From Halanaerobium saccharolyticum (lineage in GTDB: Bacteria > Bacillota > Halanaerobiia > Halanaerobiales > Halanaerobiaceae), in assembly GCF_003259895.1 (NCBI RefSeq), contig NZ_QLME01000019.1, forward strand, positions 1-61,784: a DNA stretch of 61,784 nucleotides, given 5' to 3'. The notes under the pieces are model-generated. The model searched no databases, was not told the DNA's origin, and saw only the letters and a list, made by a program, of their open reading frames with translations. The translations under genes were made by a program, and so were the position numbers. Each line of letters opens with the position of its first letter. Positions within the stretch are counted from its first letter, which is position 1. Below, piece after piece: positions 6,116 through 28,075 of this stretch.

Positions 6116-6153
6116 TATGCTTATAAATGATATTATTTTGGAAGGAGTTTATC

Positions 6154-8983: not shown

Positions 8984-9031
8984 GAAAACTTATTTTAATA
9001 GCAAAAGAAAAATAAAATAAGATAAAAATTC

Positions 9032-9068: not shown

Positions 9069-9098
9069 ATTTGTACTAACATTTAAGGAGGGAGATTT

Positions 9099-10049: not shown

Positions 10050-10052
10050 TTG

Positions 10053-11065: not shown

Positions 11066-12289
11066 ATGTCAGAAGTAGGTTTTGCAGTTGTCGGTGTGCG
11101 AAATTTTGCTGGAAGTTATCTGCGTAATATAGAAGAATTAGAGGCAGAAGGTAAAATGAAATTGACAGCTGTGGTAGTAAATGATCAGGTGAATAACGCT
11201 GATAAAGTAAGAGAATTAAGACATAAGGGTATAGCTATTTTTAGTACTTATGAGAGCTTATTAAAAGAAGGTAAAGCCTGTGTAGATGTTATTGGTTTAC
11301 CTGTTTCAATTCCGACTCATGCAGAAATGGCAATTAAGGGTATGAAAGCAGGCTACAATATCTTATTAGAAAAGCCACCTGCACCCACAGTACAGGAAAT
11401 TGATGCAATGATAAGAACTGAAAAAGAAACTGGTAGATTTTGTTCTATAGGTTTTCAGTATATACACTCACATACAATTAGAAAGATCAAGCAGTTTATT
11501 TTAGATGGAAAACTGGGTGAACTTAAAGAAATAGCTGCTAAAGGTTTCTGGCCTCGTTTTAAATCATATTATGATCGTAATGAGTGGGCCGGAAAAAGTA
11601 TAGCAATGGGTCAGCTGGTTTTAGATGGACCAATGCACAATGCATTTGCCCATTATTTAAATAATATGATCTTTATTGCAGGTACTGATATGCATAGTTC
11701 TGCTCAGTTAAAAAGAGTAAGAGCTGAATTATATAGAGGCCACAGTTATATAGAGGCTGACGATAATTCCTGTCTGGAAGTTGAAACAACTACAGGTGCG
11801 AAAATCTATTTTTATGTAACTCATATTCCAGAGGAAAAACGAGATCCTGTTATGGAAATTGTTGGTTCTAAGGGTAAAATCACCTGGCAGATGAATGAAG
11901 AAACAAAAATTGAATTAAATAATGGTGAAGTTATTGAATTTGATAATGAAGGTTTAGATCCTAAAAAAGAGGTTTTCAGAATTGCAGCAGATAAAGATCT
12001 TTCTTTAATTGAAGATTTATACTGTACACCTGAAAACACAAGAAATTTTGTAGTAGCAATTAATGGAGCTTATGATTCTGCTCAAAAAGTAAAAGCTGTT
12101 CCTCAGGATTTAGTAGAGGAATTTACCAATGATAATGATGAATATCAGACAGTACTACCCGGAATTGATAAATTAATTGACCAGGCATTTGCTGAAAGAA
12201 AATTATTATCTGATTTAGATATTGACTGGACAGTTAAAACAGAATGGGTTAATGTAGAGAACTATCCTGGTTTTAATCCGTTTAATTAA
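11066..12289 (+). CDS. Gfo/Idh/MocA family NAD(P)-dependent oxidoreductase
   Basis: Cytoplasmic dehydrogenase of 407 residues. The N-terminal Rossmann fold begins near VVGVRNFAGSY, and the hallmark EKPP motif (usual form EKP) lies near residue 110. The C-terminal alpha/beta domain has the family's substrate region around GQLVLDGPMHNAFAHY. Family members oxidise or reduce sugars, inositols or sugar acids; the exact substrate is unknown. The first Rossmann glycine pattern is looser than canonical GxGxxG. Only 16 nt separate it from the old-yellow-enzyme-like gene, so the two are almost certainly co-translated and perhaps act on one substrate. SD is GGGGG before the ATG. Confidence 0.85.
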   Translation: MSEVGFAVVGVRNFAGSYLRNIEELEAEGKMKLTAVVVNDQVNNADKVRELRHKGIAIFSTYESLLKEGKACVDVIGLPVSIPTHAEMAIKGMKAGYNILLEKPPAPTVQEIDAMIRTEKETGRFCSIGFQYIHSHTIRKIKQFILDGKLGELKEIAAKGFWPRFKSYYDRNEWAGKSIAMGQLVLDGPMHNAFAHYLNNMIFIAGTDMHSSAQLKRVRAELYRGHSYIEADDNSCLEVETTTGAKIYFYVTHIPEEKRDPVMEIVGSKGKITWQMNEETKIELNNGEVIEFDNEGLDPKKEVFRIAADKDLSLIEDLYCTPENTRNFVVAINGAYDSAQKVKAVPQDLVEEFTNDNDEYQTVLPGIDKLIDQAFAERKLLSDLDIDWTVKTEWVNVENYPGFNPFN

Positions 12290-12305
12290 GGAAGGATTTG
12301 ATTAA

Positions 12306-13619
12306 ATGAAAGATCAAAAATTTAATTATAGTTCTCTCAAAGACCTGCGGGCAGATCTGTCTGAGATTGATTTCAAACTGCCTTTAACAGAGAACACAGA
12401 AATATTAAGTAAAGAAATTAAAATAGAAAATTCGATTATTCCAAATCGAGTTGCTATTCATCCAATGGAAGGTGCAGATTCAAATCCAGACGGCACCCCT
12501 TCGGATTTAACTAGAAGAAGGTATAAACGTTTTGCTAATGGTGGGGCCGGATTGATCTGGATGGAGGCAATAGCGGTAGATGATGCCGGACGAGCAAATA
12601 AGAGTCAGCTTTATTTAAAAGAAGATAATTTAGCTGAATTTAAAGATCTGATTGAGTTTATCAATAAAGAGTCCAGAGTCAATCCCTATGTGGTGGCTCA
12701 GCTGACTCACTCCGGTCGTTTTGGAGAAAATAACATAATAGCTTTTAGAGATAAAGATCTTGATCCGGTATCAATTGCAGAAAACGATTTCCATATTATC
12801 ACAGATTCAGAACTTGATCAGCTGCAGCTTAATTATTTAAAGGCTGCAGAATTGGCTGCGGAGGCAGGTTTTGACGCTGTTGACATTAAAAGCTGTCACC
12901 GTTATCTGCTGTCATCTCTGCTGGCTGCATTTGATAGAAAAGGTAAATACGGCGGTAGTTATAAAAATAGAACTCGTTTTTTAAGAGAAACGATCAAAAA
13001 AGTAAAAGAAAATGTGGATATAGATATTACCGTCCGTTTAAATATTTATGATGCAATACCGGGTGGCTGGGCTACAGATAAAAATGGCGAACCCGAGCTG
13101 GGGGAAAGTGCAAAATTGATTAAAGACTTAGAATCACTTGGAGCAAAGATGATAAATGTTACTGCCAGCACTCCCTATTTAAAGCCACATGTTAATCGTC
13201 CTTATGATAAGGGAGGCTATAAACCGCCAGAGCATCCACTGCGTGGGGTACAGAGATTACTGGAGCTGACTAAATTTACCAGAGATAACTTAAATCAGAC
13301 TCTGGTTCTTGGAACAGGATTTAGCTGGCTGCGTCAGTATGGTGCTAATGCAGCAGCTGGAATGATAGCGGCTGGCTGGACAGATCTTGCCGGTTTTGGT
13401 CGTCAGGCATTTGCTTATCCTGATTTTGTAAATGATATTTTTGAAAAAGGAGAAATGGATAAATCAAAAGTCTGCATCAGCTGCAGTAAGTGTGCAGAAC
13501 TTAAAGCAGCAAAAAAGAAAGCTGGCTGTGTAATTAGAGACCAGGAAATTTATCTTCCAATTTATCGAGAACTGCAGCAGGAAAAGAAAGCTGATAAGCT
13601 AGAAGCTGTCAGTAATTAA
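12306..13619 (+). CDS. Old yellow enzyme-like NADH:flavin oxidoreductase
   Basis: FMN-dependent TIM-barrel ene-reductase-like protein of 437 residues, cytoplasmic. Family segments visible are NRVAIHPMEG, AQLTHSGRFG, GFDAVDIKSCHRYLLSS with the KYGGSYKNRTRF continuation, and GTGFSW. The normal HGAH active-site sequence is replaced by KSCH, keeping only the last His. The C-terminus has Cys residues spaced C-x2-C-x2-C-x11-C, resembling but not identical to the 4Fe-4S site of 2,4-dienoyl-CoA reductase (normally C-x2-C-x3-C-x11-C). The FAD/NADPH domains of that larger enzyme are absent. It is co-transcribed with the Gfo/Idh/MocA gene (16-nt gap). Substrate unknown; an unsaturated or keto uronide is a speculative candidate. 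Confidence 0.82.
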   Translation: MKDQKFNYSSLKDLRADLSEIDFKLPLTENTEILSKEIKIENSIIPNRVAIHPMEGADSNPDGTPSDLTRRRYKRFANGGAGLIWMEAIAVDDAGRANKSQLYLKEDNLAEFKDLIEFINKESRVNPYVVAQLTHSGRFGENNIIAFRDKDLDPVSIAENDFHIITDSELDQLQLNYLKAAELAAEAGFDAVDIKSCHRYLLSSLLAAFDRKGKYGGSYKNRTRFLRETIKKVKENVDIDITVRLNIYDAIPGGWATDKNGEPELGESAKLIKDLESLGAKMINVTASTPYLKPHVNRPYDKGGYKPPEHPLRGVQRLLELTKFTRDNLNQTLVLGTGFSWLRQYGANAAAGMIAAGWTDLAGFGRQAFAYPDFVNDIFEKGEMDKSKVCISCSKCAELKAAKKKAGCVIRDQEIYLPIYRELQQEKKADKLEAVSN

Positions 13620-13670
13620 ATTAATTTAATGTATTCAAACAATAATTGAGCTAATAATTGAATAAAATGA

Positions 13671-13711
13671 CAAATTACTTTATTGTAATTTGAGTATATT
13701 TTTAGTATTAT
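13671..13711 (+). promoter_or_regulatory. Candidate promoter and inverted repeat before uxaB
   Basis: Inverted repeat CAAATTAC-N6-GTAATTTG (13671-13692) overlaps a -35-like TTGTAA (13683-13688), then 17 nt to TATTAT (13706-13711). It could be an internal promoter with its own operator, distinct from the LacI-type sites. Confidence 0.4.
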
Positions 13712-13765
13712 AGATCCGAAGGGTAAAATAGAATTTTATATTTTTAAATTTAAAGGGGGCAAATA

Positions 13766-15304
13766 ATGTCTGAAAATAATTTACCGATGCTAGATCGTGA
13801 ATATTTAGAATCTGAGCTGCTGGGTACAGAATTAGCTGATTTTCCAGCTGAGGTTCTTGACTATCCAGAAAAAGTTGTACAGATCGGAGAAGGTAATTTT
13901 TTAAGAGCCTTTGTTGATTGGATGTTCCATACTATGAATAAAAAAGGAATTTTCAAGGGCAGAACCGTTGTTGTGCAGCCGATTAGAGAAGGTAGAATCT
14001 CTAATTTAAATGAACAGGATGGATTATATACTCTCTATTTAAGAGGTATAGAAAATGGGAAAGAAGTTAATAAAAAAGAGATAATGACAGCAATTTCCCG
14101 GGGTATTGAATCATATACTCAGTGGGAAGAATATTTAAAACTTGCTGAAAATCCAGCCATAGAATTTGTAGTATCTAATACTACAGAAGCTGGTATTACT
14201 TATAATGAAGACGATAAATTGAGTGATACACCTCCAGAATCATATCCTGGTAAACTGACTGCTTATCTTTACCGCCGTTACCAGACTTTTAATGGAGATG
14301 CTGATAAGGGTATGGTAATTATTCCGGTTGAATTAATTGATCGTAATGGAGATAATCTAAAACGGATTATCCTGCAGCTGGCGGAAGACTGGAAATTAGA
14401 GACCGGATTTTCCGAGTGGATTAAAGAGTCGAATCATTTTCTAAATACACTTGTTGACCGAATTGTAACGGGATATCCTTTCAATGAAATTGATGAACTG
14501 GAATCCGAATTGGGTTATCATGATCAGAATCTGGATACTGGAGAGATCTTTCACCTCTGGGTTATTGAAGGTGATGAGAGCTTAAAAGAAAAATTACCAT
14601 TCCATAAAGCTGGATTGAATGTAAAGTGGGTTGATGATTTAACACCTTACAGAACAACTAAAGTAAGAATTTTAAATGGAGCTCATACTTCAACAGTACC
14701 TGTATCCTACTTAGCTGGTATTGATCTGGTTAGAGATGCAGTAAATGATGAGCTTGTAGGTGAATTTATAAATCAGGCAGTTTTTGAAGATATTATTCCA
14801 ACTCTGGATGCAGATGAGGAAGAATTAGAAGATTTTGCCTCTAAGATTTTTGAACGCTTTAAAAATCCATATATTGACCATAAATGGCTTGATATATCCC
14901 TGAATTCAACTTCTAAATTTAAAACAAGAGTATTGCCTTCACTGGTTCAGCATATTGAAGAATATGATAAGGTTCCTGATCGTTTAAGCTTTGCTTTAGC
15001 TTCTTTGATTCATTTTTATCACGGAACCAAATTAGCGGAAGGTAAACTTGTTGCATATCGCGATGGAGAAAAATATTTAATTCGTGATGATCAGGATGCA
15101 CTAAAATACTTTGCTGGACTCTGGACTAAATTTGAAGCCGAAGAACTTAGCCTGGCTGAATTAGGAAAAGATGTGCTGGCAAATAAAAATTTCTGGGATA
15201 GAGATTTAAATGAACTTTCTGGTCTGACTGATTCCTTAATTAATAATTTAAAAATGATTAAAAAAGAAGGAATGAAAGAAAGTTTAGAGAAATTAATTAA
15301 ATAG
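13766..15304 (+). CDS. uxaB: Tagaturonate reductase (altronate oxidoreductase)
   Basis: Catalyses D-tagaturonate + NADH to D-altronate, second step of the isomerase route of galacturonate catabolism. 512 residues, mannitol dehydrogenase superfamily. The N-terminal cofactor region includes VVQIGEGNFLRAFVDWM, and the C-terminal domain has RILNGAHTS followed by the family Lys/His-rich segment around FKTRVLPSL. Slightly longer than the E. coli enzyme as I recall it (about 480). Strong SD (AAAGGGGG) precedes the ATG. It is the first of four consecutive uronate genes (uxaB, uxaE, uxaC, uxaA). Fructuronate reductase UxuB is a paralogous alternative, but adjacency to UxaA supports UxaB. Confidence 0.9.
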   Translation: MSENNLPMLDREYLESELLGTELADFPAEVLDYPEKVVQIGEGNFLRAFVDWMFHTMNKKGIFKGRTVVVQPIREGRISNLNEQDGLYTLYLRGIENGKEVNKKEIMTAISRGIESYTQWEEYLKLAENPAIEFVVSNTTEAGITYNEDDKLSDTPPESYPGKLTAYLYRRYQTFNGDADKGMVIIPVELIDRNGDNLKRIILQLAEDWKLETGFSEWIKESNHFLNTLVDRIVTGYPFNEIDELESELGYHDQNLDTGEIFHLWVIEGDESLKEKLPFHKAGLNVKWVDDLTPYRTTKVRILNGAHTSTVPVSYLAGIDLVRDAVNDELVGEFINQAVFEDIIPTLDADEEELEDFASKIFERFKNPYIDHKWLDISLNSTSKFKTRVLPSLVQHIEEYDKVPDRLSFALASLIHFYHGTKLAEGKLVAYRDGEKYLIRDDQDALKYFAGLWTKFEAEELSLAELGKDVLANKNFWDRDLNELSGLTDSLINNLKMIKKEGMKESLEKLIK

Positions 15305-15314
15305 ATAAACATAT

Positions 15315-15343
15315 AATATCCTCACTATTTAAGTGAGGATATT
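15315..15343 (+). terminator. Intercistronic stem-loop uxaB-uxaE
   Basis: Perfect 12-bp stem AATATCCTCACT / AGTGAGGATATT with a 5-nt loop, no strong T run. Likely processing or partial termination inside the operon. Confidence 0.65.
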
Positions 15344-15383
15344 CTTGCTGAATATTGTTTCTCAAACTTAAGGAGGTAATATT

Positions 15384-16907
15384 ATGTCCTGGAAAGATTT
15401 TGCGGAAGAACTTGTTGGTACTTCAAAAGAGGCTGTTAAAAAAGTTGCTGAATATGCTGAAGATTATCGGATTTATCCCCGTTCTATTATTAAAGAAGGG
15501 AAGTCATTTTATTTTCTGGCTAAAGTTGATCAGAAAAAGAAACTGGTGATTTTGAACAAAAGTAAGAATTTTGAACTTTTTGAAGGTGAAACTGAAGAAC
15601 TGGCAGGCTTTAAGGCGAAAGTTGCCCCACTAAGCCACTATAATGCAGAAATTTTGAGAGATATATTTCCGTTTGCTGCTCCTCGAGCTTTAGGAAATCA
15701 GTCTCCCAGCATTGGACTTGGAGATCGTCTGGGAATTGCAACACCGGGGCATATTAAAGCTGTTAAAGATAGCGATGCTCTACCTGTATTTGCACAGCAG
15801 TCGGTAAGAGAACTCAATTTAACCGGTAGAACATTTAAATCGGTACTTGATGATGTTAGCTGGGCAGTTTTTCAGGAAGGATATCAGGATGGATTTGCTG
15901 CAGATGCTGATCATTTAAAAGAAAAACCTGATATTGAGAATGCTTTAGAACTTGGATATAGTATGTTAACTTTAGATTGTACAGAATATATCAATGATAA
16001 TCTTGATCAAATGTCAGATACTGAAATAGAAGAGGCCTATCAGGAAGTACCTGATTATTTAAAAGATGGTCTGGAAGATCAGTATTTAGATAAAACTTTT
16101 GTACTCAATTCCGGTTATCAGCTTGAATATAATCAGGATAATTTCAAAAAAATAGTATTAATTTATTACAAGATGCTTGATTTTGCAAAGGAGATTCAGC
16201 ACCTGATCAAAAAATCAAATAGGGATGTAGACTTTGAAATTTCAATTGATGAGACTTCAACTCCTACTACCCCAGAAGCCCATTTCTTTGTGGCAAATGA
16301 ATTACAAAGAAATAATATTGATGTTAATTCTCTGGCTCCTCGTTTTGTTGGGGAATTTCAGAAGGGTATTGATTATATTGGTGATCTGGAGCAGTTTGAA
16401 AAAGAATTTAAAATTCATGCTGATATTGCAGAACGTTTTGGCTATAAATTAAGTATCCATTCTGGTAGTGATAAATTTAGCGTTTTCCCAATTATTGGAC
16501 GTCATACTCAGGGGAGAGTGCATGTTAAAACTGCTGGTACTAACTGGTTGGAAGCAATTAGAGTAGTTGCTGAAAACGACCCTTCATTATATCGGGATAT
16601 TCATGCTTATGCTCTAGAAAAATTCGAAGCAGCTAAAGAATTCTATCATGTGACAACTGATCTTTCACAACTACCGGAGCTGGCACAGCTTAGTGACCAG
16701 GAACTGGGAGAGTTGTTAGAAATTGATGAAGTAAGACAGCTGCTGCATATTACCTATGGTTTTATACTTCAGGATAAAAAAGATGGACGTTATATTTTTA
16801 GAGACAAATTATATAAATTCTGGGATGAACATGATAAGGAATACCGCCGAGCTTTAGAAAGACATATCGGAAAACATCTGAGCAAACTTGGGTTTTACAA
16901 AAAATAA
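15384..16907 (+). CDS. uxaE: Tagaturonate epimerase (tagaturonate/fructuronate)
   Basis: 507-residue cytoplasmic enzyme matching the UxaE family first assigned in Thermotoga, which epimerises D-tagaturonate to D-fructuronate and so joins the galacturonate branch to the mannonate branch. Recognised by overall length and segments such as FAAPRALGNQSPSIGLGDRL, GYQDGFAADADHLK and SIHSGSDKFSVFPIIGRHTQ, which contain conserved acidic and His residues suitable for metal binding. The ATG has an AAGGAGG SD. Its presence beside UxaB and UxaA gives the cell a choice between altronate and mannonate routes; no mannonate genes (uxuA/uxuB) are in the window. Confidence 0.85.
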   Translation: MSWKDFAEELVGTSKEAVKKVAEYAEDYRIYPRSIIKEGKSFYFLAKVDQKKKLVILNKSKNFELFEGETEELAGFKAKVAPLSHYNAEILRDIFPFAAPRALGNQSPSIGLGDRLGIATPGHIKAVKDSDALPVFAQQSVRELNLTGRTFKSVLDDVSWAVFQEGYQDGFAADADHLKEKPDIENALELGYSMLTLDCTEYINDNLDQMSDTEIEEAYQEVPDYLKDGLEDQYLDKTFVLNSGYQLEYNQDNFKKIVLIYYKMLDFAKEIQHLIKKSNRDVDFEISIDETSTPTTPEAHFFVANELQRNNIDVNSLAPRFVGEFQKGIDYIGDLEQFEKEFKIHADIAERFGYKLSIHSGSDKFSVFPIIGRHTQGRVHVKTAGTNWLEAIRVVAENDPSLYRDIHAYALEKFEAAKEFYHVTTDLSQLPELAQLSDQELGELLEIDEVRQLLHITYGFILQDKKDGRYIFRDKLYKFWDEHDKEYRRALERHIGKHLSKLGFYKK

Positions 16908-16960
16908 TTTATTTTATGATTAGTTATGGATTTTAATTAAAATAGATGATATTATGATTA

Positions 16961-16974
16961 TGAAAACATTTTCA
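16961..16974. promoter_or_regulatory. LacI/cre-like palindrome before uxaC
   Basis: TGAAAACATTTTCA, a palindrome apart from the central CA, 31 nt before the uxaC ATG. It resembles both the locus operator core (AAAACATTTT, identical to O2 at 7469) and a catabolite-responsive element, from which it differs at the central CG. Confidence 0.5.
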
Positions 16975-17004
16975 AAAGTTAAATATCACATTAGGAGGAA
17001 TAAA

Positions 17005-18378
17005 ATGGCTTTTTTAGATAAAAATTATTTACTTGAAGGTGAAACAGCAAAAAAATTATACAAAGAAATTGAAAATTTACCGATTTTAGATGCACATAAC
17101 CACGGAGATGTGCCAGAAATTTTAGCCAATGAAGGCTGGAATGATATTTGGGAGGTTGAAGCTGAGACTGACCATTATGTCTGGGAAATGATGCGTAAAA
17201 GAGGTGTGCCGGAAGAAAGGATTACTGGAGATGCTTCCAATAAAGAAAAGTGGATGGCTTTAGCAAAAATCTTTCCAGAAATTGCAGGAAATCCAACCTA
17301 TGAGTGGGTACATCTTGACTTAAAACGCCGTTTTGGAATTGAGGAGCCTATTTCTGAGCATACAGCAGAGATGATCTGGGAAAAAACTAAGAATATGCTG
17401 GCTAAAGAAGAAATGAGCCCCCAGAATTTATTAAAAGAAATGAATGTTGAGATTATGTGTACTACAGATGAGCCATATTCTCGCCTGGAAAATCATAAAA
17501 AAGCAAAAGAAGAGGTAGAAGGAGTAAAGATTCTTCCTACCTGGCGTCCTGATAAAATAATGAATATTGAGCACCAAAATTGGTCTGAGTATGTTGAAAA
17601 ATTAGGAGATGCTTATGAGCAGGATGTTAACGATTTAGATGGTCTTTTAACTGCTCTTAAAAAGTCTCACGATTACTTTGATGAAATGGGCTGTGTAGCC
17701 AGTGACCACGGGATTGTGGAGCCAATTTCTTATAAAGTTGAGAAGTCAAAGTCTGCTGAGATTTATAAAAAAGCAGTAAATGGTGAAGAATTAACTGAAG
17801 CAGAAGTTAGAGATTTTAAAGCCTTTACTTTAGTTGAATTCGCTAAATTAAATAAAGAGAGTGGCTGGGTAACCCAGCTGCATATCGGAGCTGTTAGAGA
17901 CTATCGCGACAACCTTTATGAAAACTTAGGCCCTGATACAGGTGGGGATATTTCTAATAGTGATATTGAGCTAGCTGAGAATCTGAAGTATTTTGTTAAT
18001 AAATTTGATTCTGAGTTAGACATCGTGCTTTATACAATGGAGCCAACTCACTGGTTTACAGCTTCTACAATTTCCAGAGCTTTTCCAAATGTTTCATTAG
18101 GAGCTCCCTGGTGGTTAACTGATAGTCCTTTTGGAATGGAAAGACAGCTGCAGCAGGTTACAACTGTAGATTTATTTTATAATCTTGCAGGGATGGTAAC
18201 AGACTCCAGAAAATTAATGTCTTATTCTTCTCGTTCAGAAATGTTTAGAAGAACCTTAGCCAATGTTGTCGGCCGTCAGGTTGATCGTGGTAGAATGCCT
18301 TACAGTGTAGCAGCAGATCTGGTTGCACATGTAAGTTACTACGGACCAAAGAAATTGTTCTTTAAAAATGTAAAATAA
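17005..18378 (+). CDS. uxaC: Uronate (glucuronate/galacturonate) isomerase
   Basis: Converts D-galacturonate to D-tagaturonate and D-glucuronate to D-fructuronate, the entry step of the pathway. 457 residues, close to the E. coli enzyme. Amidohydrolase-like TIM barrel with the early metal/active-site motif LDAHNHGD near residue 30, and QLHIGAVRDYR and GAPWWLTDSP further on. An in-frame ATG at 16954 would swallow the palindrome at 16961; the ATG at 17005 has a strong AGGAGG SD (16993-16998) and is preferred. It lies between uxaE and uxaA, with a stem-loop after it. Confidence 0.93.
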   Translation: MAFLDKNYLLEGETAKKLYKEIENLPILDAHNHGDVPEILANEGWNDIWEVEAETDHYVWEMMRKRGVPEERITGDASNKEKWMALAKIFPEIAGNPTYEWVHLDLKRRFGIEEPISEHTAEMIWEKTKNMLAKEEMSPQNLLKEMNVEIMCTTDEPYSRLENHKKAKEEVEGVKILPTWRPDKIMNIEHQNWSEYVEKLGDAYEQDVNDLDGLLTALKKSHDYFDEMGCVASDHGIVEPISYKVEKSKSAEIYKKAVNGEELTEAEVRDFKAFTLVEFAKLNKESGWVTQLHIGAVRDYRDNLYENLGPDTGGDISNSDIELAENLKYFVNKFDSELDIVLYTMEPTHWFTASTISRAFPNVSLGAPWWLTDSPFGMERQLQQVTTVDLFYNLAGMVTDSRKLMSYSSRSEMFRRTLANVVGRQVDRGRMPYSVAADLVAHVSYYGPKKLFFKNVK

Positions 18379-18404
18379 GCTATTAAATAATCAAATATAT
18401 ATTT

Positions 18405-18437
18405 AAATAGCCTGGGATGTACTATTCCAGGCTATTT
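18405..18437 (+). terminator. Intercistronic stem-loop uxaC-uxaA
   Basis: AAATAGCCTGG / CCAGGCTATTT, 11 bp perfect and extendable by a G-U and an A-U pair, followed by only a short T stretch, 24 nt before the uxaA ATG. Confidence 0.65.
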
Positions 18438-18458
18438 TAGAATAAAAAGGAGGTTCTT

Positions 18459-19964: not shown

Positions 19965-19992
19965 TTATTTTTAATATCCAGGTTTTAAATTC

Positions 19993-20039
19993 AAGCTTCT
20001 CTGTGCAAAAATTAAATATAATTTAGGCTGGGGAAGCTT
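19993..20039 (+). terminator. Probable terminator after uxaA
   Basis: AAGCTTCTC / GGGGAAGCTT pairing (about 10 bp with G-U) around a long loop, followed by a weak T-rich stretch. It ends the uxaB-uxaE-uxaC-uxaA block just before a new operator. Confidence 0.45.
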
Positions 20040-20075
20040 TAACTATGTTTTTATTAATATTTACATTTGAGTTAT

Positions 20076-20091
20076 CGGAAATTGTTTTCCA
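20076..20091. promoter_or_regulatory. LacI-type operator O3
   Basis: CGGAAATTGTTTTCCA, 15 of 16 positions identical to O1 at 7338. It lies 26 nt before the preferred start of the downstream gene. Confidence 0.6.
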
Positions 20092-20117
20092 TAAAATCAA
20101 AAAAAGAGGTGTTAGCT

Positions 20118-21104
20118 GTGAAAATAGTTTTAATTGGTTCTACCGGTCATACTAATTATGTTGTAAACGGACTTAAAGATAATTATGAAGATCAGATTGT
20201 GGGAATTGCTCCTGGATCTGAAGGGGAAAGTGTAGACTCTTTATATCAAAAATTAGCAAAAGATTATGATCTAAAAAAGTATAATGATTATCAGAAAATG
20301 CTGGATGAATTAAAACCAGATGTAGCTGCAGTTGCCTGTCATTTTGGTGACCATGCTAAAGCTGCCGTAGAAGTTTTAAATAGAAATATTGATCTATTTG
20401 TAGAAAAACCAATTGCAACCACTCTTTCGGAACTGGCTGAAGTTAAATCTGCCTACGAAAAAAGTGAGTCTAAACTTGCTTCTATGTTTGGAATCCGCTA
20501 TAAGCCCTGGTTTTTAACAGCTTATAAATATATAAAAGAAGGAGCAATCGGGGAAGTAAGATTGATGAATGCTCAAAAATCATATCGTCTAGGACAGCGA
20601 GCTGAGTTTTATAAAAAAAGAGAAACATACGGAGGAACTATTCCCTGGGTTGGAAGTCATGCAATTGACTGGATGCAGTGGCTGAGCGGCAAAGATTTTA
20701 AATCAGTTTATGCCTCTCATTCAACTAAGGCCAATCGGAATCACGGTGAACTTGAAGTTTCAGCACTCTGTCACTTTAATTTTGAAGATGAGGTTTCTGG
20801 ATCAGTCAATATTGATTATCTCAGACCACAGAATGCTACCAGCCATGATGATGATCGGATCAGAATAGCCGGAGATAAAGGAGTTATTGAAGTTTTAAAA
20901 GAAAAGGTATATTTAATCAATGATCAGATTGAAGGAAGCAGAGAACTTCCACTGGTCGGAAACAAAGAAATATTTGCTGACTTTTTAGACTGGGTCAAAG
21001 GTCAGGGAGAATGCATGATCAGTGCCGCAGAATCTTTTAGAGTATCTGAGGCTGCTCTGCAGGCCAGAGAATCTGCAGATCAGAAAAAATTGATTAAGTT
21101 TTAA
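20118..21104 (+). CDS. Gfo/Idh/MocA family oxidoreductase
   Basis: Second Gfo/Idh/MocA dehydrogenase, 328 residues, cytoplasmic. The Rossmann start KIVLIGSTGHTNYVV is followed by the EKPIATT motif near residue 112 and a GGTIPWVGSHAIDWMQW segment with the typical catalytic His region. A TTG at 20067 would add 17 residues but would place operator O3 inside the gene. The GTG at 20118 follows an AGAGGTG SD and gives the normal N-terminus, so I use it. It heads a block with GH28, an esterase-like hydrolase, a MATE-like protein and a flavoprotein. Substrate unknown; a uronide or its keto derivative is plausible from context. Confidence 0.85.
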   Translation: MKIVLIGSTGHTNYVVNGLKDNYEDQIVGIAPGSEGESVDSLYQKLAKDYDLKKYNDYQKMLDELKPDVAAVACHFGDHAKAAVEVLNRNIDLFVEKPIATTLSELAEVKSAYEKSESKLASMFGIRYKPWFLTAYKYIKEGAIGEVRLMNAQKSYRLGQRAEFYKKRETYGGTIPWVGSHAIDWMQWLSGKDFKSVYASHSTKANRNHGELEVSALCHFNFEDEVSGSVNIDYLRPQNATSHDDDRIRIAGDKGVIEVLKEKVYLINDQIEGSRELPLVGNKEIFADFLDWVKGQGECMISAAESFRVSEAALQARESADQKKLIKF

Positions 21105-21190
21105 ATTATATATCTTTAAATCTATATAGTTTTAAATTGATTTATCTTATGTAGTTTTAATAAATTATTATTTTCAAACTGGAGGTAGCG

Positions 21191-22516
21191 ATGTTAAAAA
21201 ATAATTTTGAAATAGAAGTCAGAAAACCGGAATTTCCTGATCGAGAATTTAATATCAAAGAATTTGGTGGAGTAGCAGAGGGGAAATTTGATAATACTGA
21301 AGTTTTTGCTGAAGCAATATCCAGCTGTCATCAGGCAGGTGGAGGAACTATTATTGTTCCCGAAGGAAAGTGGTTTACAGGACCAATTCATTTTAAAAGT
21401 AATGTTCATTTAAAATTAGAAGCAGGAGCAGTTATCTCCTTTAGTGATAATTTTGAAGACTATCTTCCGGTTGTATTTACCCGCTGGGAAGGAAATGAAT
21501 GCTATAATTATTCTCCTTTAATTTATGCAGCAAACTGTGAAAACATTGCAATTACAGGTCAGGGTAAACTGGTAGGTAATGGTGCCAGATGGTGGCCCTG
21601 GAAGCAGACTCAGCATGCTGCTGCCAGAGAATTATATGATGCAGAATATAACGGGATTCCAGTTGAAGATAGAATTTTTGGTAGAGAAGAAGGATTAAGG
21701 CCCCAGTTTATTCAGCCTATTAATTCTAAAAATATTTTAATTGAAGGAATTACAATTGTTGATGGGCCAATGTGGACTATCCATCCTGTTTATTGTGAGA
21801 ATACAATAATTAGAGATTTAAAAATTATCACAGATGGACCAAATACAGATGGCATAAATCCAGATTCCTGCAAAAATATGCTAATTGAAGACTGTGATTT
21901 TGAAACTGGTGATGACTGTATAGCAATAAAATCCGGTATCAATGAAGACGGCAGGCGAGTTAACAGACCGACTGAAAACTTACTGATTCGTAACTGTAAG
22001 GCAAAAGAAGGTCATGGGGGAGTTGTAATTGGCAGTGAAATGTCCGGAGGAGTTAAAAATGTGCATGTCCATGACTGTGTTTTCAATGGAGGTGAAAGAG
22101 GAGTCCGTCTAAAATCAATGCGCGGCCGTGGTGGCTGTGTAGAAAATCTTCTCTTTGAAAATATTGAAATTAATAATCTCCGTGATCAGGGCATAATTTT
22201 AAACATGTATTATGATGCAACAACTGTTGAACCCCGCAGTGAAATGCCGCCTTTGTTTAGAAATATTACTGTCCGCAATATTACAGGAACAAATATCAAT
22301 CAACCGATTGTCCTGCGAGGACTGCCGGAAAATAAAATGAAGGATATAACTTTAGAAAATATTGACTTGAGTGGTACAGAGGGTCTAACTGCCAGTAATC
22401 TGGATGGTTTGTACTTAAAAGATATTAAGCTTAAAGTAAAAGCTGAGGCACAGTTTGAATTTAAAAATGTTACTGATTTAAATATAGAAAACAGCAGCTG
22501 TCAGGAAAATAAATAG
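21191..22516 (+). CDS. Glycoside hydrolase family 28 (polygalacturonase-like), cytoplasmic
   Basis: 441-residue parallel beta-helix enzyme hydrolysing alpha-1,4-galacturonosyl bonds. All four GH28 signatures are present: N218-T-D220-G, G240-D241-D242, G274-H275-G276 and R306-L-K308; the Asp residues are the catalytic acid/base set. No signal peptide is present, so it should act on imported oligomers, most likely as an exo-acting galacturonidase or on rhamnogalacturonan oligomers. The ATG has a GGAGG SD. It is followed 46 nt later by an esterase-like hydrolase, consistent with coordinated de-esterification and hydrolysis. Two further GH28 domains lie at 28189 and 38503. Confidence 0.92.
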   Translation: MLKNNFEIEVRKPEFPDREFNIKEFGGVAEGKFDNTEVFAEAISSCHQAGGGTIIVPEGKWFTGPIHFKSNVHLKLEAGAVISFSDNFEDYLPVVFTRWEGNECYNYSPLIYAANCENIAITGQGKLVGNGARWWPWKQTQHAAARELYDAEYNGIPVEDRIFGREEGLRPQFIQPINSKNILIEGITIVDGPMWTIHPVYCENTIIRDLKIITDGPNTDGINPDSCKNMLIEDCDFETGDDCIAIKSGINEDGRRVNRPTENLLIRNCKAKEGHGGVVIGSEMSGGVKNVHVHDCVFNGGERGVRLKSMRGRGGCVENLLFENIEINNLRDQGIILNMYYDATTVEPRSEMPPLFRNITVRNITGTNINQPIVLRGLPENKMKDITLENIDLSGTEGLTASNLDGLYLKDIKLKVKAEAQFEFKNVTDLNIENSSCQENK

Positions 22517-22562
22517 TTTGTTATTAAAAAGAGATTAAACATAAAATTATGAGGTGTAAATA

Positions 22563-23627
22563 ATGGCAGGAAATAAAATGGATTTTTCTCCAGATTCCTA
22601 TTTAGCAAAACTATATCAAAATAATCAGCCTGAACTGCAATTTGATGCTGAAAATAGAGCCGGGTGGAAGAAGTGGCGTCAGAAGTTGAAAGCAAAAATC
22701 GCTGATTTGATCGGTGGACCTCTAGAGAAAACTCAAATTACTGAACTGGTAGTTATAGAAAAGAGAGAATTTGAAACTTACAGTAGAGTCAAAATTGCCT
22801 ATCAGGTTAAGGACTATCTTAAGATTCCTGCCTATTTATTAATTCCTGACAGGGATCAAGATAAGTATCCGGCAGTGATAATTGCTCACGGCCATGGAAA
22901 TGGAAATCGAGAAACTCTGGGATTAAATGGAGCTGGAGAAAAGTTAGAAGAAGCTACCTGTCACAATAATCTGGCTCTGGATTTTGTGGAAGCCGGTTAT
23001 ATTGTGCTTGTTCCGGAGCTAATTGGTTTTGGTGAGCGCAGATTGAAAGAAGATTATCAGGAGGATCCAGCTTTAAAAGAAGATCCAACTGCAAATTCCT
23101 GTTATCGAATCAACAGCCAGCTCATGTTATACGGGCAGAGTATTCTCAGACTCAGGCTCTGGGATATTATCTCTGCTCTTAAAGTTTTAGAAAACAGGGA
23201 AGATGTGATAAGAGAGCAAATTAGCTGTCTTGGATTTTCGGGCGGAGCACCGGTTGCGATTTTAGCCTCGTTATTTTCTGAAGGGATAAAAGCAGCTGTA
23301 ATCAGTGGTTATACTTCCTATTATCAGGACAGTATCATGGACAGACGTCACTGTTTAGATAACTATTTGCCCGGGATTTTAAATACTGCTGAATTACCGA
23401 CAATTATATCTTCTATTGCTCCTAAACCACTTTTAATTCAGGCTGCAGAAAATGATCATCTTTTTCCAGTTGATTCTGCCCAGAAAGCATATCGGGAAAT
23501 AGAAAAAGTTTATAAATTTTTAAATGTTGAAGATCGAATTAGAATGGATATTATAGAAAATGCAGAGCATTCAGTTTCGGCTGCAGCTGCTATAAAATTC
23601 TTAAATAATTTAGACGAAATTAGATAG
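22563..23627 (+). CDS. Alpha/beta hydrolase, acetyl-esterase/dienelactone-hydrolase-like
   Basis: 354-residue cytoplasmic serine hydrolase. The oxyanion region HGHGNG lies near residue 105, the nucleophile elbow is G-F-S226-G-G, and likely triad Asp (NDHLFPVD, about residue 303) and His (ENAEHS, about 337) follow. The AENDHLFP-type end is typical of dienelactone-hydrolase and acetyl xylan esterase relatives. Its position between GH28 and transport genes suggests removal of acetyl or other ester groups from pectic oligomers, but the acyl group cannot be deduced. No signal peptide. Confidence 0.75.
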   Translation: MAGNKMDFSPDSYLAKLYQNNQPELQFDAENRAGWKKWRQKLKAKIADLIGGPLEKTQITELVVIEKREFETYSRVKIAYQVKDYLKIPAYLLIPDRDQDKYPAVIIAHGHGNGNRETLGLNGAGEKLEEATCHNNLALDFVEAGYIVLVPELIGFGERRLKEDYQEDPALKEDPTANSCYRINSQLMLYGQSILRLRLWDIISALKVLENREDVIREQISCLGFSGGAPVAILASLFSEGIKAAVISGYTSYYQDSIMDRRHCLDNYLPGILNTAELPTIISSIAPKPLLIQAAENDHLFPVDSAQKAYREIEKVYKFLNVEDRIRMDIIENAEHSVSAAAAIKFLNNLDEIR

Positions 23628-23664
23628 TCAAGCTAACTAATCTTAATATAGCAAGGAGAATTTG

Positions 23665-25026
23665 ATGTCGAAGAATATAAAAAATAGAATTGAAGCAATA
23701 AAATATCCGCAATTACTTAAGTTTTTTCTACCACTGGCAGTAATGCCGATTATTATAGGAATCTCACATAATGCAATTAATGCCAGTCTGGCCAGATTAC
23801 CTTTTCCGGAAATCACCCTGGCAGTTTATGCAGTAGCGAAGAGTATAACCAATATTATTAAATCTCCTATACATATGTCAAGACAGACAGTAACCTCCCT
23901 GGTTGATGATCACAGCAGTTTTAAATTTGTCAGCCGTTTTATTTTTGGGCTGGGTGTTTTATATTTTTTGATGATTGCCTCTCTAGGTTATACGCCCCTG
24001 GGAGAATTTGTATTTAAAAAGATTATCGGCTTAAAGGATCCCCAGGAGATTAAATTTGCCTATCAGGCTTTGAGCATCATGGCTTTTATTCCCCTTGTAG
24101 AGTCAATAAGGAATATAATGCAGGGGCTGGCTATCAGTCTCAAAAAGACTAATTTAATTACTCCGGGAGTGGTAGTGAGGATTATTAGTATTTCGTTAAT
24201 TCTGCTCTGGGTAACTATAAATCAGGCAGTCGCCGGTGTAACAGCAGCCAGTGGTGTCTGGTTGATTGGAATTACAATTGAAATGATTTTTATTACTTTT
24301 GCTTTACGTTATACTTTTGGCAGTTTTAGTGGAGTTATCGATAGTTTACCTGATAATGTAAGTAAAAAGGTTAATCTTAAAAGTATAACTAAATTTTTTA
24401 TACCAATTGCAATTATGGCATTTCTGGCCCGTTTTGTTCAGCCGGTAGTCCAGAGTGGAATTGTGCGCAGCAGTATCGGTACTCATGATCTGGCAGCTTA
24501 TGGTGTCAGCTGGACACTGGTAATGATTTTTGTGGGTCCTTTAGATCAACTGCATCAGTGTTCTCTGGTTTATGCTCGGGAATTAAATCATAATAACTGG
24601 CAGAAAATACTGAAGTTTTCGCTGGCAGCAGGAGCAATTGTCAGTTCAATTCTGGCTGTTCTGGCTTTTACTAAAGTTGGAGATTTTGTTTTGATCAGAT
24701 TAATTTCTGTTTCACCTGCAATTGCTGCCATAGTTAAAAAGGTGATTTTTGCCTTTATCTTATTTCCAATCATTAGGGCCTTTAGAGAGACCTTCTGGGG
24801 AGTAATGATGCAGCGGCAGACAACTAATATTATTGCAGCTGCTAAAATAGTCGGGCTGGTATTTGTGGTCCTAGTCTTTTTAATATTAGCTATAACTATA
24901 GAAATTAATGCTGCAATAATTGCAGCTATAGCTCTAACAGCTGGAGAAGCAGCAGATGCATTAACAATTAGCTTTTTTATTATTAAAAACAAAATTTTAG
25001 AAAAAATATATGCAGACAATAATTAA
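23665..25026 (+). CDS. MATE-like multidrug/oligosaccharide-flippase superfamily membrane protein
   Basis: 453-residue polytopic membrane protein with about 12 hydrophobic segments arranged as two similar halves, resembling MATE (MOP superfamily) antiporters. It is divergent: I recognise the fold-level pattern rather than a clear subfamily. The ATG at 23665 follows AAGGAG; a TTG three bases earlier is less well spaced. It is embedded between an esterase and a flavoprotein in a catabolic operon, where an importer, or an exporter of a pathway by-product, would make more sense than a drug pump. Direction and substrate are unknown. Confidence 0.65.
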   Translation: MSKNIKNRIEAIKYPQLLKFFLPLAVMPIIIGISHNAINASLARLPFPEITLAVYAVAKSITNIIKSPIHMSRQTVTSLVDDHSSFKFVSRFIFGLGVLYFLMIASLGYTPLGEFVFKKIIGLKDPQEIKFAYQALSIMAFIPLVESIRNIMQGLAISLKKTNLITPGVVVRIISISLILLWVTINQAVAGVTAASGVWLIGITIEMIFITFALRYTFGSFSGVIDSLPDNVSKKVNLKSITKFFIPIAIMAFLARFVQPVVQSGIVRSSIGTHDLAAYGVSWTLVMIFVGPLDQLHQCSLVYARELNHNNWQKILKFSLAAGAIVSSILAVLAFTKVGDFVLIRLISVSPAIAAIVKKVIFAFILFPIIRAFRETFWGVMMQRQTTNIIAAAKIVGLVFVVLVFLILAITIEINAAIIAAIALTAGEAADALTISFFIIKNKILEKIYADNN

Positions 25027-25076
25027 AGTAATGACTTATAATAAAGGTACATTGTTAATTTTTGAAGGAGGATATA

Positions 25077-27074
25077 ATGAAAAAAGATCAGCTTCAAATT
25101 AATGAACAAAATATCGATGTTTATTCTTTAAATACAGTAGTTGTTGGTTCTGGGGCTGCGGGTTTTAATGCCGCTGATCGACTTTATAATTTTGGACAAA
25201 AAGATATAGCAATTGTCACAGAGGGCATTAAGATGGGAACTTCCCGCAATACAGGTTCAGATAAACAGACCTATTATAAATTAACTTTAGGTGGCAAAGA
25301 TCAGGACTCAGTATTTGAAATGGCAGAAACCTTATTTGTCGGTGGCAGTATGGACGGAGATATTGCTCTGGTAGAAGCGGCATTATCGTCTCGTTCTTTT
25401 TACCATCTGGTGGATATTGGTGTGCCTTTTCCTCATAACCGCTTTGGAGAGTATGTGGGTTATAAAACTGATCATGATCCACGCAAAAGAGCAACATCTG
25501 CTGGACCTCTTACTTCTCGCTATATGACAGAAAAACTGGAAAAAGAAGTTAAAAATAAGGAGATTGAAATCTTTGATAACTATCAGGTAATAGCGGTTTT
25601 AACAGATCAGGAGCAGGAAAATGCAGTTGGTCTTTTAACCCTTAATAAAAATCAGCTGGACAATGGTGCCAGACGTTATACAATTTTTAATGCGACTAAT
25701 ATAGTTTATGCAACCGGGGGACCTGCCGGCCTGTATGATACTTCTGTTTATCCAGGCAGTCAGACTGGCGCTTCCGGACTTGCTTTTGAGGCAGGAGTTA
25801 AGGGAAAAAATTTAACTGAGTGGCAGTACGGAATTGCCTCGATTAAATTTCGCTGGAATCTATCTGGAACCTATCAGCAGGTTTTACCTACCTATATTTC
25901 TACCGACCAGGATGGAAATGATAAGAAAGAATTTTTAAAAGAATATTTTGCTGAGCCCGGAAAAATGCTGGATGCAGTTTTTCTTAAAGGCTATCAGTGG
26001 CCCTTTGATCCCCGAAAAGTTAAAGATTTTGGTTCTTCGTTAATTGATATTTTAGTTTATAATGAAACCGTAGTTAAAGGAAGAAGAGTCTGGCTGGACT
26101 ACGGCCATAATCCTCAATTCGCATCAGAGAATGGTAAATTAGATTTTTCTCTTCTGGGGGAAGAAGCCGAAGAGTATCTTAAAAATTCTGAGGCTTTATT
26201 TGGGACTCCAATCGAAAGATTAAAAAAGATGAATCAGCCGGCAATTGATTTATATGCTGACAATGGTATAGACTTAGCCAATGAAATGCTGGAAATTGCA
26301 GTCTGTGCTCAGCATAACAATGGAGGTTTAGAAGGTAATATCTGGTGGGAAAGTAATCTATCTCATTTCTTCCCGGTAGGAGAGGTAAATGGAAGTCATG
26401 GAGTTTATCGACCAGGTGGAACTGCCCTAAATTCTGGCCAGGTGGGAAGTACCAGAGCTGCGCAGTTTATAGCAGCTCGATATCAGGAAAGCCCGGCTGA
26501 GTTAGAAGAGTTTAAAGCTATAACTGAACTGCAGATTAAAAAGAAACTAGATCTTGGTGAAAGACTTTTACAATCAATAAAATCTAGCGATGATACTAAT
26601 GTAATTGAAATTAGAAAGAATCTGGGAGAGAGAATGAGCAGAGCTGGTGCCCATATTCGCAACTTAAGTGCTATAGAAACTGCTCTAAAAGAAGCAGAAA
26701 GCCAACTGGAAAATCTGGGTGAGATTAGCAATCTAAACTCAAGCAGAGATTTAAGTCTGGCTTTTCAGAATTATGATTTACTCATAGCCCAGTTTGTCTA
26801 TTTAACCGCCTTTAAAGATTATATTGAACTGGGAGGTAAAAGTCGGGGTTCTTATCTTGTTCAGGATGAAGATGGAGAACTTCCTTTAGAAAGTTTAGAC
26901 GATAATTTTAGATTTAGTTTAGAAGATAGCAATTTAAGCAAAAAAATACAGCGCATTAAATATAAAGAAGATCATTTTGAATTCAGCTGGCAGGATGTAA
27001 AGCCAATTCCTGAGGACAATAACTGGTTTGAAACTGTCTGGAATAAATATCTTAATGATCAAGTGATAAAATAA
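25077..27074 (+). CDS. FAD-dependent oxidoreductase, succinate dehydrogenase/fumarate reductase flavoprotein-like
   Basis: 665-residue soluble flavoprotein. The dinucleotide-binding motif G24-S-G-A-A-G29 follows VVV. The C-terminal FAD-binding signature FFPVGEVNGSHGVYR...GGTALNSGQVGSTRAA is characteristic of the SdhA/FrdA/L-aspartate oxidase superfamily. No iron-sulfur or membrane partner subunit is encoded nearby and there is no signal peptide, so it is not a respiratory complex in the usual sense. The ATG at 25077 sits behind AAGGAGG. Co-transcription with GH28 and a Gfo/Idh/MocA enzyme points to oxidation or reduction of a sugar-derived intermediate; the substrate is unknown. Confidence 0.82.
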   Translation: MKKDQLQINEQNIDVYSLNTVVVGSGAAGFNAADRLYNFGQKDIAIVTEGIKMGTSRNTGSDKQTYYKLTLGGKDQDSVFEMAETLFVGGSMDGDIALVEAALSSRSFYHLVDIGVPFPHNRFGEYVGYKTDHDPRKRATSAGPLTSRYMTEKLEKEVKNKEIEIFDNYQVIAVLTDQEQENAVGLLTLNKNQLDNGARRYTIFNATNIVYATGGPAGLYDTSVYPGSQTGASGLAFEAGVKGKNLTEWQYGIASIKFRWNLSGTYQQVLPTYISTDQDGNDKKEFLKEYFAEPGKMLDAVFLKGYQWPFDPRKVKDFGSSLIDILVYNETVVKGRRVWLDYGHNPQFASENGKLDFSLLGEEAEEYLKNSEALFGTPIERLKKMNQPAIDLYADNGIDLANEMLEIAVCAQHNNGGLEGNIWWESNLSHFFPVGEVNGSHGVYRPGGTALNSGQVGSTRAAQFIAARYQESPAELEEFKAITELQIKKKLDLGERLLQSIKSSDDTNVIEIRKNLGERMSRAGAHIRNLSAIETALKEAESQLENLGEISNLNSSRDLSLAFQNYDLLIAQFVYLTAFKDYIELGGKSRGSYLVQDEDGELPLESLDDNFRFSLEDSNLSKKIQRIKYKEDHFEFSWQDVKPIPEDNNWFETVWNKYLNDQVIK

Positions 27075-27157
27075 ATTGACTAAAAAGATAATTGTAAATC
27101 ATTCGAGATCAATGATAAAATAATCACAAATAATTCTGTTTTATGGAGGAGATAAAC

Positions 27158-28040: not shown

Positions 28041-28075
28041 AACTACAGTCTATCTATGAGGCTGTAGTTTTTTTA
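28041..28075 (+). terminator. Rho-independent terminator after the AraC regulator
   Basis: AACTACAG / CTGTAGTT stem (8 bp, extendable), followed by a run of T residues. Confidence 0.85.

Follow-up and report, generated by a model that had tools for sequence, protein, structure and literature searches.

A putative flavin-dependent sugar-acid redox module among the galacturonate genes of Halanaerobium saccharolyticum

Four genes for redox proteins are interspersed with galacturonate genes in the window, which here means the whole 61,784-nucleotide stretch of DNA analysed from the halophile Halanaerobium saccharolyticum (Table 1). They encode two Gfo/Idh/MocA dehydrogenases (GfoA and GfoB), an OYE-like flavoprotein (OYE) and an FAD protein with the SdhA/FrdA fold (SDHL). 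Pfam matches confirmed the family assignments of the original prediction, and the genes are indeed co-oriented with the intervening uxaB, uxaE, uxaC, uxaA and GH28 genes. Clear ribosome sites accompany the starts assigned earlier to GfoB (20118, GTG) and SDHL (25077, ATG), which are preferable to the longer mechanical reading frames that begin at 20067 and 25062. Intergenic gaps from 11066 to 27994 are only 17–154 bp, and the terminator-like hairpin with its T run lies on the coding strand directly 3' of the AraC gene. Hence, as judged from the sequence, 11066–27994 plausibly forms one transcription unit. The GH28 protein is nearest to the alpha-D-galacturonidase BT4155, but its score (NF049892, 372 bits) is under the cutoff of 800. 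A GH4 gene, invoked earlier as support for the set, is indeed present at 48083–49495, but at a distance of 20 kb it does not belong to the redox genes.

Table 1. Features of the gene run and its upstream flank, with window coordinates.
Feature	Position	Strand	Evidence
LacI-type regulator	6127..7185	+	HTH/LacI sequence
ABC sugar transporter, binding protein and two permeases	7691..10898	+	sequence
GfoA, Gfo/Idh/MocA dehydrogenase	11066..12289	+	PF01408 (GFO_IDH_MocA) 5.5e-14; EKP motif
OYE-like FMN protein, C-terminal 4Fe-4S motif, no FAD/NAD domain	12306..13619	+	PF00724 (Oxidored_FMN) 1.6e-30
UxaB tagaturonate reductase	13766..15304	+	NF002969 687 bits, cutoff 359
UxaE tagaturonate epimerase	15384..16907	+	PF16257 1.5e-206
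UxaC uronate isomerase	16954..18378	+	NF002794 533 bits, cutoff 387
UxaA altronate dehydratase-type	18459..19964	+	PF20629 9e-99
GfoB, second Gfo/Idh/MocA dehydrogenase	20118..21104	+	PF22725 (GFO_IDH_MocA, C3 domain) 1.5e-20; EKP, GSHAID motifs
GH28, no evident signal peptide	21191..22516	+	PF00295 4e-41
Abhydrolase, probable esterase	22563..23627	+	PF12715 2.3e-14
Membrane protein (ANKH/MATE-like), possible transporter	23662..25026	+	PF07260 1.5e-16
SDHL, cytosolic SdhA/FrdA-fold FAD protein	25077..27074	+	PF00890 (FAD_binding_2) 3.1e-10
AraC-type regulator	27143..27994	+	PF12833 5.7e-22
Terminator-like hairpin, end of gene run	28041..28069	+	11-pair stem, then TTTTTATTAT

The OYE-like protein has the features of the 2-enoate/dienoyl-CoA reductase branch, namely the PF00724 domain, the FMN barrel and a CxxCxxC...C motif for a 4Fe-4S cluster. 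In its chain of 437 aa the motif reads CISCSKC-x11-C, and the cysteines C390, C393, C396 and C408 were invariant in all 46 relatives. In comparisons with the AlphaFold model (pLDDT 94.9), 2-naphthoyl-CoA reductase (TMq 0.74) and dienoyl-CoA reductase (0.71) covered the query best; that a family is missing from the list of a structure search is no evidence against that family. The FMN-site residues are kept, and an invariant K195 replaces His164 of YqjM. The C-terminal FAD/NAD(P)H domain is not present, as the chain ends soon after the motif. Fused OYE-Fer4_20-Pyr_redox_2 versions were found only at L057, L089 and L104, which shows that NAD(P)H can supply OYE with electrons. We also considered whether SDHL stands in for the FAD domain that OYE lacks, but this idea is weakened because the loci with OYE-FAD fusions retain SDHL.

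The model of SDHL (pLDDT 92.0) shows the complete SdhA/FrdA fold (VIA-align to FrdA: Z 43.1, 549 residues, rmsd 4.2). Yet, its active site differs from that of FrdA. Equivalents of FrdA H232 and R287 are absent, at positions that were checked in 70 sequences: QYGIAS stands in place of QYHPTG, and the RDKVSQ region is without arginine. Retained are the counterparts of FrdA H355 and R390, which serve one carboxylate in that enzyme; R287 is the proton donor of FrdA. Genes for an iron-sulphur B subunit or membrane anchor neither adjoin SDHL in the window nor occur among its identified recurrent neighbours. SDHL reached no NCBIfam cutoff, none of the four redox proteins reached the cutoff of a characterised family, and no characterised relative of the module's enzymes indicated a substrate.

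The association of these genes is more than chance, because other genomes repeatedly have them in combination. OYE and SDHL are both present in 16 of 18 carrier genomes. Over 61 genomes they were jointly present or jointly absent in 57, including three Halanaerobium genomes with neither (16/2/2/41; Fisher p 1e-10, uncorrected for kinship). From the SDHL family, which has over 571 loci, we further compared 75 usable ones from Bacillota, Planctomycetota, Aminicenantes, KSB1 and one archaeon. OYE was located within 6 kb of SDHL in 37 of these; it preceded SDHL in the same orientation in 35, and was the directly preceding gene in 12 of the 75. An SDR gene lay within 6 kb in 41 loci and a member of the LacI cluster in 11; relatives of the window's LacI adjoin the module elsewhere, and orthologues of its ABC transporter (87–98%) lie upstream of GfoA in related genomes. 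Other neighbours of the module include an IlvD/EDD sugar-acid dehydratase, TctABC or TRAP carboxylate transporters and IclR. Large genes adjoining some SDHL loci appeared mostly housekeeping-like by eye and gave no clue to the substrate.

The module's third member, an NAD(P)-type dehydrogenase, is interchangeable among the unrelated SDR, Gfo and Zn-ADH families. Both GfoA and GfoB match PF01408 above its cutoff, in line with a Rossmann fold, and carry the EKP motif. Orthologues of GfoA (identity at least 58%) were confined to SDHL genomes, where they occurred in 9 of 18. GfoA and SDR were nearly exclusive in these genomes (one with both, seven with SDR only, eight with GfoA only), and in the two SDHL genomes with neither, Zn-ADH genes adjoin the module. 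Genome G000 has no SDR partner at E 1e-60, and GfoA is therefore taken as its stand-in. The module SDR itself is not KduD, since it scored 331 bits with PRK12745 (cutoff 250) but only 163 bits with KduD (cutoff 339). GfoB orthologues likewise occurred only in SDHL genomes (8 of the 61), and GfoB is an extra dehydrogenase that accompanies the module in some of them. In G022 and G025, from another family, GfoB and GfoA-like proteins recur near OYE and SDHL, with KDG genes but no adjacent uxa genes. Together with the co-occurrence of OYE and SDHL, this upholds the view that the set behaves as a unit.

Conserved neighbourhood gave a mixed answer on the link with uronates. The genes recur together, as predicted, but they stand beside uxa genes mainly in Halanaerobium and G057, and mostly apart from them elsewhere. 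Any KDG, uronate or aldonate gene was found within ~6 kb at 18 of 44 OYE-positive SDHL loci. KDG-kinase and KDPG-aldolase genes are often downstream of the module; SDHL is flanked by KdgK, Eda or both in G007, G022, G023, G025, G026 and several distant loci. In the Halanaerobium genome G007 (one contig, 99% complete) the order is GfoA-OYE-TIM-SDHL-Eda-KdgK, and UxaC, UxaA, UxuA and KduI were not found in this genome. Therefore, the module is no mere accessory of the isomerase route, even though G007 might have another KDG source, for instance an IlvD/EDD-type dehydratase. Conversely, G006 and G010 have UxaC without OYE and SDHL, which agrees with the claim that the known galacturonate pathway can do without these genes. 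KduI did not accompany the module: G000 has it at another place, and G007, G023 and G026 lack it. Nothing pointed to the predicted specific tie to lyase products or rhamnose-linked disaccharides. Hence, the observation behind the original prediction is confirmed, and its interpretation is supported in part.

Our tentative explanation, to which we give slightly less than an even chance, is that OYE, SDHL and GfoA are the local form of a three-part redox module for sugar acids, as yet uncharacterised, that feeds KDG beside UxaC, UxaB and UxaA. It builds on demonstrated gene linkage, co-occurrence, an interchangeable dehydrogenase, fold, motif changes and the KDG kinase/KDPG aldolase context in G007. 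The module would combine a flavin/4Fe-4S protein of the enoate-reductase type, an SDH/FRD-fold FAD protein and one NAD(P)-type dehydrogenase (Gfo, SDR or Zn-ADH). The dehydrogenase would form or remove a ketone on a mono-carboxylated sugar, such as a uronate or aldonate derivative. Adjacent to the carboxylate, SDHL might interconvert C-C and C=C or carry out an equivalent two-electron reaction, and the activated C=C formed in this way would be reduced by OYE. The product would be a 2-keto-3-deoxy acid, KDG or an isomer, reached beside rather than through UxaC, UxaB and UxaA. In the window, this could permit the use of a pectin uronide that UxaC cannot accept. Against this explanation speak the small share of OYE-positive loci with a recognised KDG, uronate or aldonate gene close by (18 of 44), and the lack in the window of the TIM-barrel gene that accompanies GfoA in relatives. 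A quinate/shikimate-type dehydroxylation was considered in view of the carboxylate transporters, but we found no literature support for it, and the KDG genes argue against it in the close branch.

An alternative explanation, close to the original prediction, might be a 3-keto glycoside route. A uronoside would first be oxidised at C3 by a Gfo enzyme; elimination of the aglycone by a TIM-barrel protein would then yield an enone, which the flavoproteins would reduce. An Agrobacterium operon provides a precedent, since it combines a flavoprotein C3-dehydrogenase and a Gfo protein with two 'sugar phosphate isomerase' proteins that act as eliminase and, preliminarily, hydratase (PMC10628242). In addition, GfoA paralogues adjoin AP_endonuc_2 TIM barrels with GH2, DUF2264 and heparinase II/III-like genes. 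A TIM barrel adjoins GfoA in G001, G004, G007, G011, L090 and L094, and in G007, L090 and L094 one of the AP_endonuc_2 type lies inside the GfoA-OYE-SDHL locus. The window operon, however, has no TIM barrel and thus lacks the usual lyase partner, and its flavoproteins belong to families other than the Agrobacterium one. Moreover, the NCBIfam glycoside/disaccharide 3-dehydrogenase models (BT_2158/BT_2159) gave 23–37 bits against cutoffs of 650–750, and SDR or Zn-ADH replaces Gfo in many modules. We regard this explanation as unlikely.

It seems rather improbable that the proteins form an electron sink, in which electrons pass from NAD(P)H via OYE and its 4Fe-4S cluster to SDHL and from there to a C=C compound as the last acceptor, in the manner of a soluble NADH-dependent fumarate/acrylate-type reductase. 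This would be consistent with the co-occurrence of OYE and SDHL and their direct adjacency in 12 of 75 loci, with a 4Fe-4S motif supplied by OYE to an SDHL without SdhB-like partner, and with the OYE-FAD fusions. Yet, SDHL misses the equivalent of the proton donor R287, and the sugar dehydrogenases, KDG genes and sugar regulators that constantly accompany it indicate a role in carbon catabolism. Uronates are oxidised sugars, and their fermentation scarcely requires an additional sink. Least probable is that the genes are passengers of a pectin operon with no relation to each other, one of them detoxifying enoates, for example, and another reducing hydroxycinnamates of feruloylated pectin, because OYE, dehydrogenase and SDHL recur in many phyla, also at loci without pectin genes, even though the operon has an esterase-like gene and the OYE and FAD_binding_2 superfamilies contain broad enoate reductases.

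The proposed module may be a second way from acidic sugars to the central intermediate KDG. More broadly, it is conceivable, if doubtful, that OYE, the interchangeable dehydrogenase and SDHL provide many anaerobic bacteria and some archaea with an undescribed flavin-dependent route to KDG, where redox-assisted deoxygenation replaces the sugar-acid dehydratases. If the module does feed KDG, genome annotation misses a flavin-dependent entry into this pathway, because it names the genes fumarate reductase-like, 3-ketoacyl-ACP reductase and NADH oxidase. Such an entry would also explain the KDG kinase and aldolase in sugar operons of genomes without UxaC, UxaA, UxuA and KduI, and assign a function to a large orphan SdhA/FrdA branch with a distant member in more than half of the E. 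coli genomes. In the literature outside subscription papers we found no description of OYE with KDG, or of enoate reductase or fumarate reductase-like proteins with uronates, which is no proof of novelty. Direct tests are possible, since the module is short and cultured strains carry it (H. saccharolyticum, H. congolense and H. kushneri).

Compared to known systems, OYE shares the FMN barrel and 4Fe-4S motif with 2,4-dienoyl-CoA reductase, 2-naphthoyl-CoA reductase and the bile-acid enzyme BaiCD, but differs in its missing FAD/NAD(P)H domain, the lysine for YqjM His164 and an identity of ~20%. Similarly, SDHL has the whole fold of SdhA, FrdA and L-aspartate oxidase, including the helical C-terminal domain and the HxxGG and R-xGG motifs, but only 18–20% identity, and it lacks the H232/R287 equivalents and an SdhB or membrane partner. 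The Agrobacterium GlycDH-OGE-HYD-Gfo operon for glycoside deglycosylation (PMC10628242) is similar in having a flavoprotein, Gfo and TIM-barrel proteins that act on sugars, but its flavoprotein is of another family and the window has no TIM barrel.

SDHL relatives of E. coli and Rhizobium (35–37% identity) have no OYE nearby but an enoyl-CoA hydratase and a CoA-transferase instead, and the SDHL family may therefore serve more than one pathway. The E. coli island between ytfB and rplI consists of SDR, TIM barrel, enoyl-CoA hydratase, CoA-transferase, FAD protein and TRAP genes. It shares a distant SDHL (36–37%) and the same SDR family (PRK12745) with the module, with CoA genes in place of OYE. 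Finally, unlike the module, which G007 has without UxaC, UxaA and UxuA, the galacturonate isomerase pathway (UxaC-UxaB-UxaA, KdgK and Eda, with UxaE) has no flavin-requiring step; the two share the operon in the window and, in related genomes, the KDG kinase/KDPG aldolase exit.

The original prediction had set four oxidoreductase genes among the uronate genes of the window, and this arrangement was confirmed: all four lie on the + strand amid UxaB/E/C/A and GH28, within contig 19 of the 3.3 Mb genome. In fact, every large gene from 7691 to 27994 is on that strand (see table). Intergenic gaps between 11066 and 27994 are 17–154 bp, and a terminator-like hairpin lies 3' of the AraC gene. Neither the Gfo/Idh/MocA dehydrogenases GfoA and GfoB nor the OYE-like FMN protein (OYE) and the SdhA-like FAD protein (SDHL) match an NCBIfam model at cutoff; the adjoining uxaB and uxaC pass theirs. 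None of the four is a member of a CHARACTERISED family. Related Halanaerobium genomes conserve the ANKH/MATE-like protein inside their pectin operon. Elsewhere in the window, two dCache chemoreceptor genes (1425–5610) precede the pectin genes, and a single protein (38491–40827) combines GH28 and pectinesterase domains.

Gene order from 7691 to 27994 in the window
Feature	Position	Strand
ABC sugar transporter	from 7691	+
GfoA	11066	+
OYE-like FMN protein	12306	+
UxaB, UxaE, UxaC, UxaA	in this order between OYE and GfoB	+
GfoB	20118	+
GH28, no evident signal peptide	between GfoB and abhydrolase	+
Abhydrolase	between GH28 and ANKH/MATE-like protein	+
ANKH/MATE-like membrane protein	23662–25026	+
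SDHL, SdhA-like FAD protein	25077	+
AraC regulator	ends run at 27994	+

OYE and SDHL travel together. Of 61 genomes, comprising that of the window and 60 relatives, 18 gave strong matches to SDHL (>250 bits) and 18 to OYE (>350 bits), with both in 16 (Fisher p 1e-10; 1e-6 within order; 0.005 within genus; kinship uncorrected). In the four discordant genomes, the lone gene sits on a short contig. SDHL and OYE distances were correlated across 45 loci (r 0.61; 0/1000 permutations as high, kinship uncorrected), and the OYE label was clustered on the SDHL tree (12 changes vs 22.6 for shuffles). Both genes are absent from three Halanaerobium genomes, two of which (G006, G010) have UxaC, so the canonical pathway needs no OYE/SDHL pair. 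For this pair, the earlier claim of dispensability for the known galacturonate pathway was thus borne out. Fragments of an OYE paralogue with an internal stop (G000:C12:17299–17823) are apparently a decayed copy.

With a dehydrogenase, OYE and SDHL would form a three-part module. Scanning bacterial and archaeal genomes yielded >571 SDHL loci, and counts were made on those 75 of the best 80 in which the SDHL reading frame was sufficiently complete. Within 6 kb of SDHL, OYE was present in 37/75 and a PRK12745-family dehydrogenase (SDR) in 41/75; directly 5' of SDHL lay the SDR gene in 33 loci and the OYE gene in 12. Of the 37 OYE-bearing loci, 35 have OYE upstream of SDHL and in the same orientation. 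Among the 18 relatives with SDHL, seven have only the SDR, eight only a GfoA orthologue, one both and two neither; in these last two, Zn-ADH genes adjoin the module. Given this near-exclusive distribution, three unrelated NAD(P)-type dehydrogenases appear to stand in for one another. GfoB orthologues are confined to SDHL genomes in the 61-genome set, and two genomes of another family hold GfoA-like, GfoB, OYE and SDHL genes together, with KDG genes.

In G007, G022, G025 and G026, SDHL is flanked by genes for a KDG-kinase-like protein and a KDPG aldolase, in G023 by the aldolase gene, and one or both recur in several distant loci. Other module loci carry an IlvD/EDD dehydratase, epimerase-like TIM barrels, a Zn-ADH resembling scyllo-inosose dehydrogenase, IclR or LacI regulators, and TctABC or TRAP carboxylate transporters; the order in H. 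congolense is OYE-SDR-SDHL-TctCBA-uxaB-uxaE-uxaC. A KDG, uronate or aldonate gene is nearby in 18/44 OYE-positive loci. Whether orthologues lie mostly apart from uronate genes, which would have counted against the original prediction, has a mixed answer: uxa neighbours are found only in Halanaerobium and one further genome (G057), while sugar-acid genes in a broader sense recur. In G007, a single-contig genome of 99% completeness, the order is ABC transporter-GH112-GfoA-OYE-TIM barrel-SDHL-Eda-KdgK; a search there for UxaC, UxaA, UxuA and KduI found none, and enolase-superfamily matches were weak only. This gene content of G007 is the chief argument that the module would be more than an accessory of the isomerase route. 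A GH112-type phosphorylase gene adjoins, or lies two genes from, an OYE copy at L048 (G007; Pfam) and L060 (G000:C49; by eye). Uroporphyrinogen-decarboxylase-family genes, which might be methyltransferases for methylated sugars, recur beside the module (L077 8760–9902, L079, L111, L128 977–2017).

Among proteins of solved structure, a sequence search related SDHL to L-aspartate oxidase, SdhA and FrdA and to no others (best E 5e-11). The AlphaFold model of SDHL (pLDDT 92.0) matches FrdA from end to end, helical domain included (Z 43; 549 residues aligned). In the alignment, SDHL keeps HxxGG with H418 (FrdA H355) and R450 (R390), whereas QYHPTG has become QYGIAS and the arginine is absent from the R287 region. 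In FrdA, one carboxylate is bound by the residues that SDHL keeps; the other is bound, and the proton supplied, by those that it has lost. Since only one carboxylate-binding pair is kept, we infer a mono-carboxylate substrate and another proton donor. R264, W265 and N266 are near-invariant across the family.

OYE (AlphaFold pLDDT 94.9) has a 4Fe-4S motif, CISCSKC-x11-C, and none of its four cysteines varies across 46 relatives. By structural coverage it is nearest to 2-naphthoyl-CoA and dienoyl-CoA reductases but, unlike these, stops shortly past the motif; the position of YqjM His164 is an invariant Lys195. OYE-Fer4_20-Pyr_redox_2 fusions occur at L057 (1240–3912; Pfam), L089 (6592–9210) and L104 (2–2524; the latter two by 44–45% identity). 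SDHL is retained at all three, which favours an NAD(P)H- or Fe-S-fed OYE reductase and a separate chemical step for SDHL.

In the proposed route, the dehydrogenase would interconvert alcohol and ketone on a sugar acid, SDHL would act on C-C/C=C or perform an equivalent step next to the carboxylate, and OYE would reduce an activated C=C, giving a 2-keto-3-deoxy acid for KDG kinase and KDPG aldolase. Distant loci in E. coli and Rhizobium (SDHL 35–37% identity) have enoyl-CoA hydratase and CoA-transferase close by, and OYE is not among the annotated genes nearby. As enoate reductase and enoyl-CoA hydratase both use enoates, an alpha,beta-unsaturated acid would, on this indirect evidence, fit as the intermediate common to both types of locus. 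At L164 (E. coli HS 4447269–4463350) and L160, an operon between ytfB and rplI encodes an SDR (PRK12745), a TIM barrel, enoyl-CoA hydratase, CoA-transferase, an SDHL-like FAD protein and a TRAP transporter. The FAD gene is present in 3106/5426 complete E. coli genomes; a search for a function of this operon found none.

GfoA, OYE, GfoB and SDHL are each members of known superfamilies; the module's combination, wide spread and KDG link appear undescribed within the searchable literature. A less likely but viable alternative is a 3-keto route in which a Gfo enzyme would oxidise the substrate, a TIM-barrel protein would carry out the elimination and the flavoproteins would reduce the product. In G000, G004 and G011, GfoA paralogues are accompanied by varying sets of genes for TIM barrels, GH2, DUF2264 and heparinase II/III-like proteins. 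At L151, L154, L155 and L156, likely second uronide loci of their genomes, DUF2264, GH2 and heparinase II/III-like genes adjoin GfoA paralogues or SDR/TIM-barrel genes. The precedent for the 3-keto route is an Agrobacterium flavoprotein-Gfo-TIM barrel operon, which acts via oxidation and elimination (PMC10628242). However, that operon has a TIM barrel, which the window's operon lacks, and its flavoprotein differs from those of the window.
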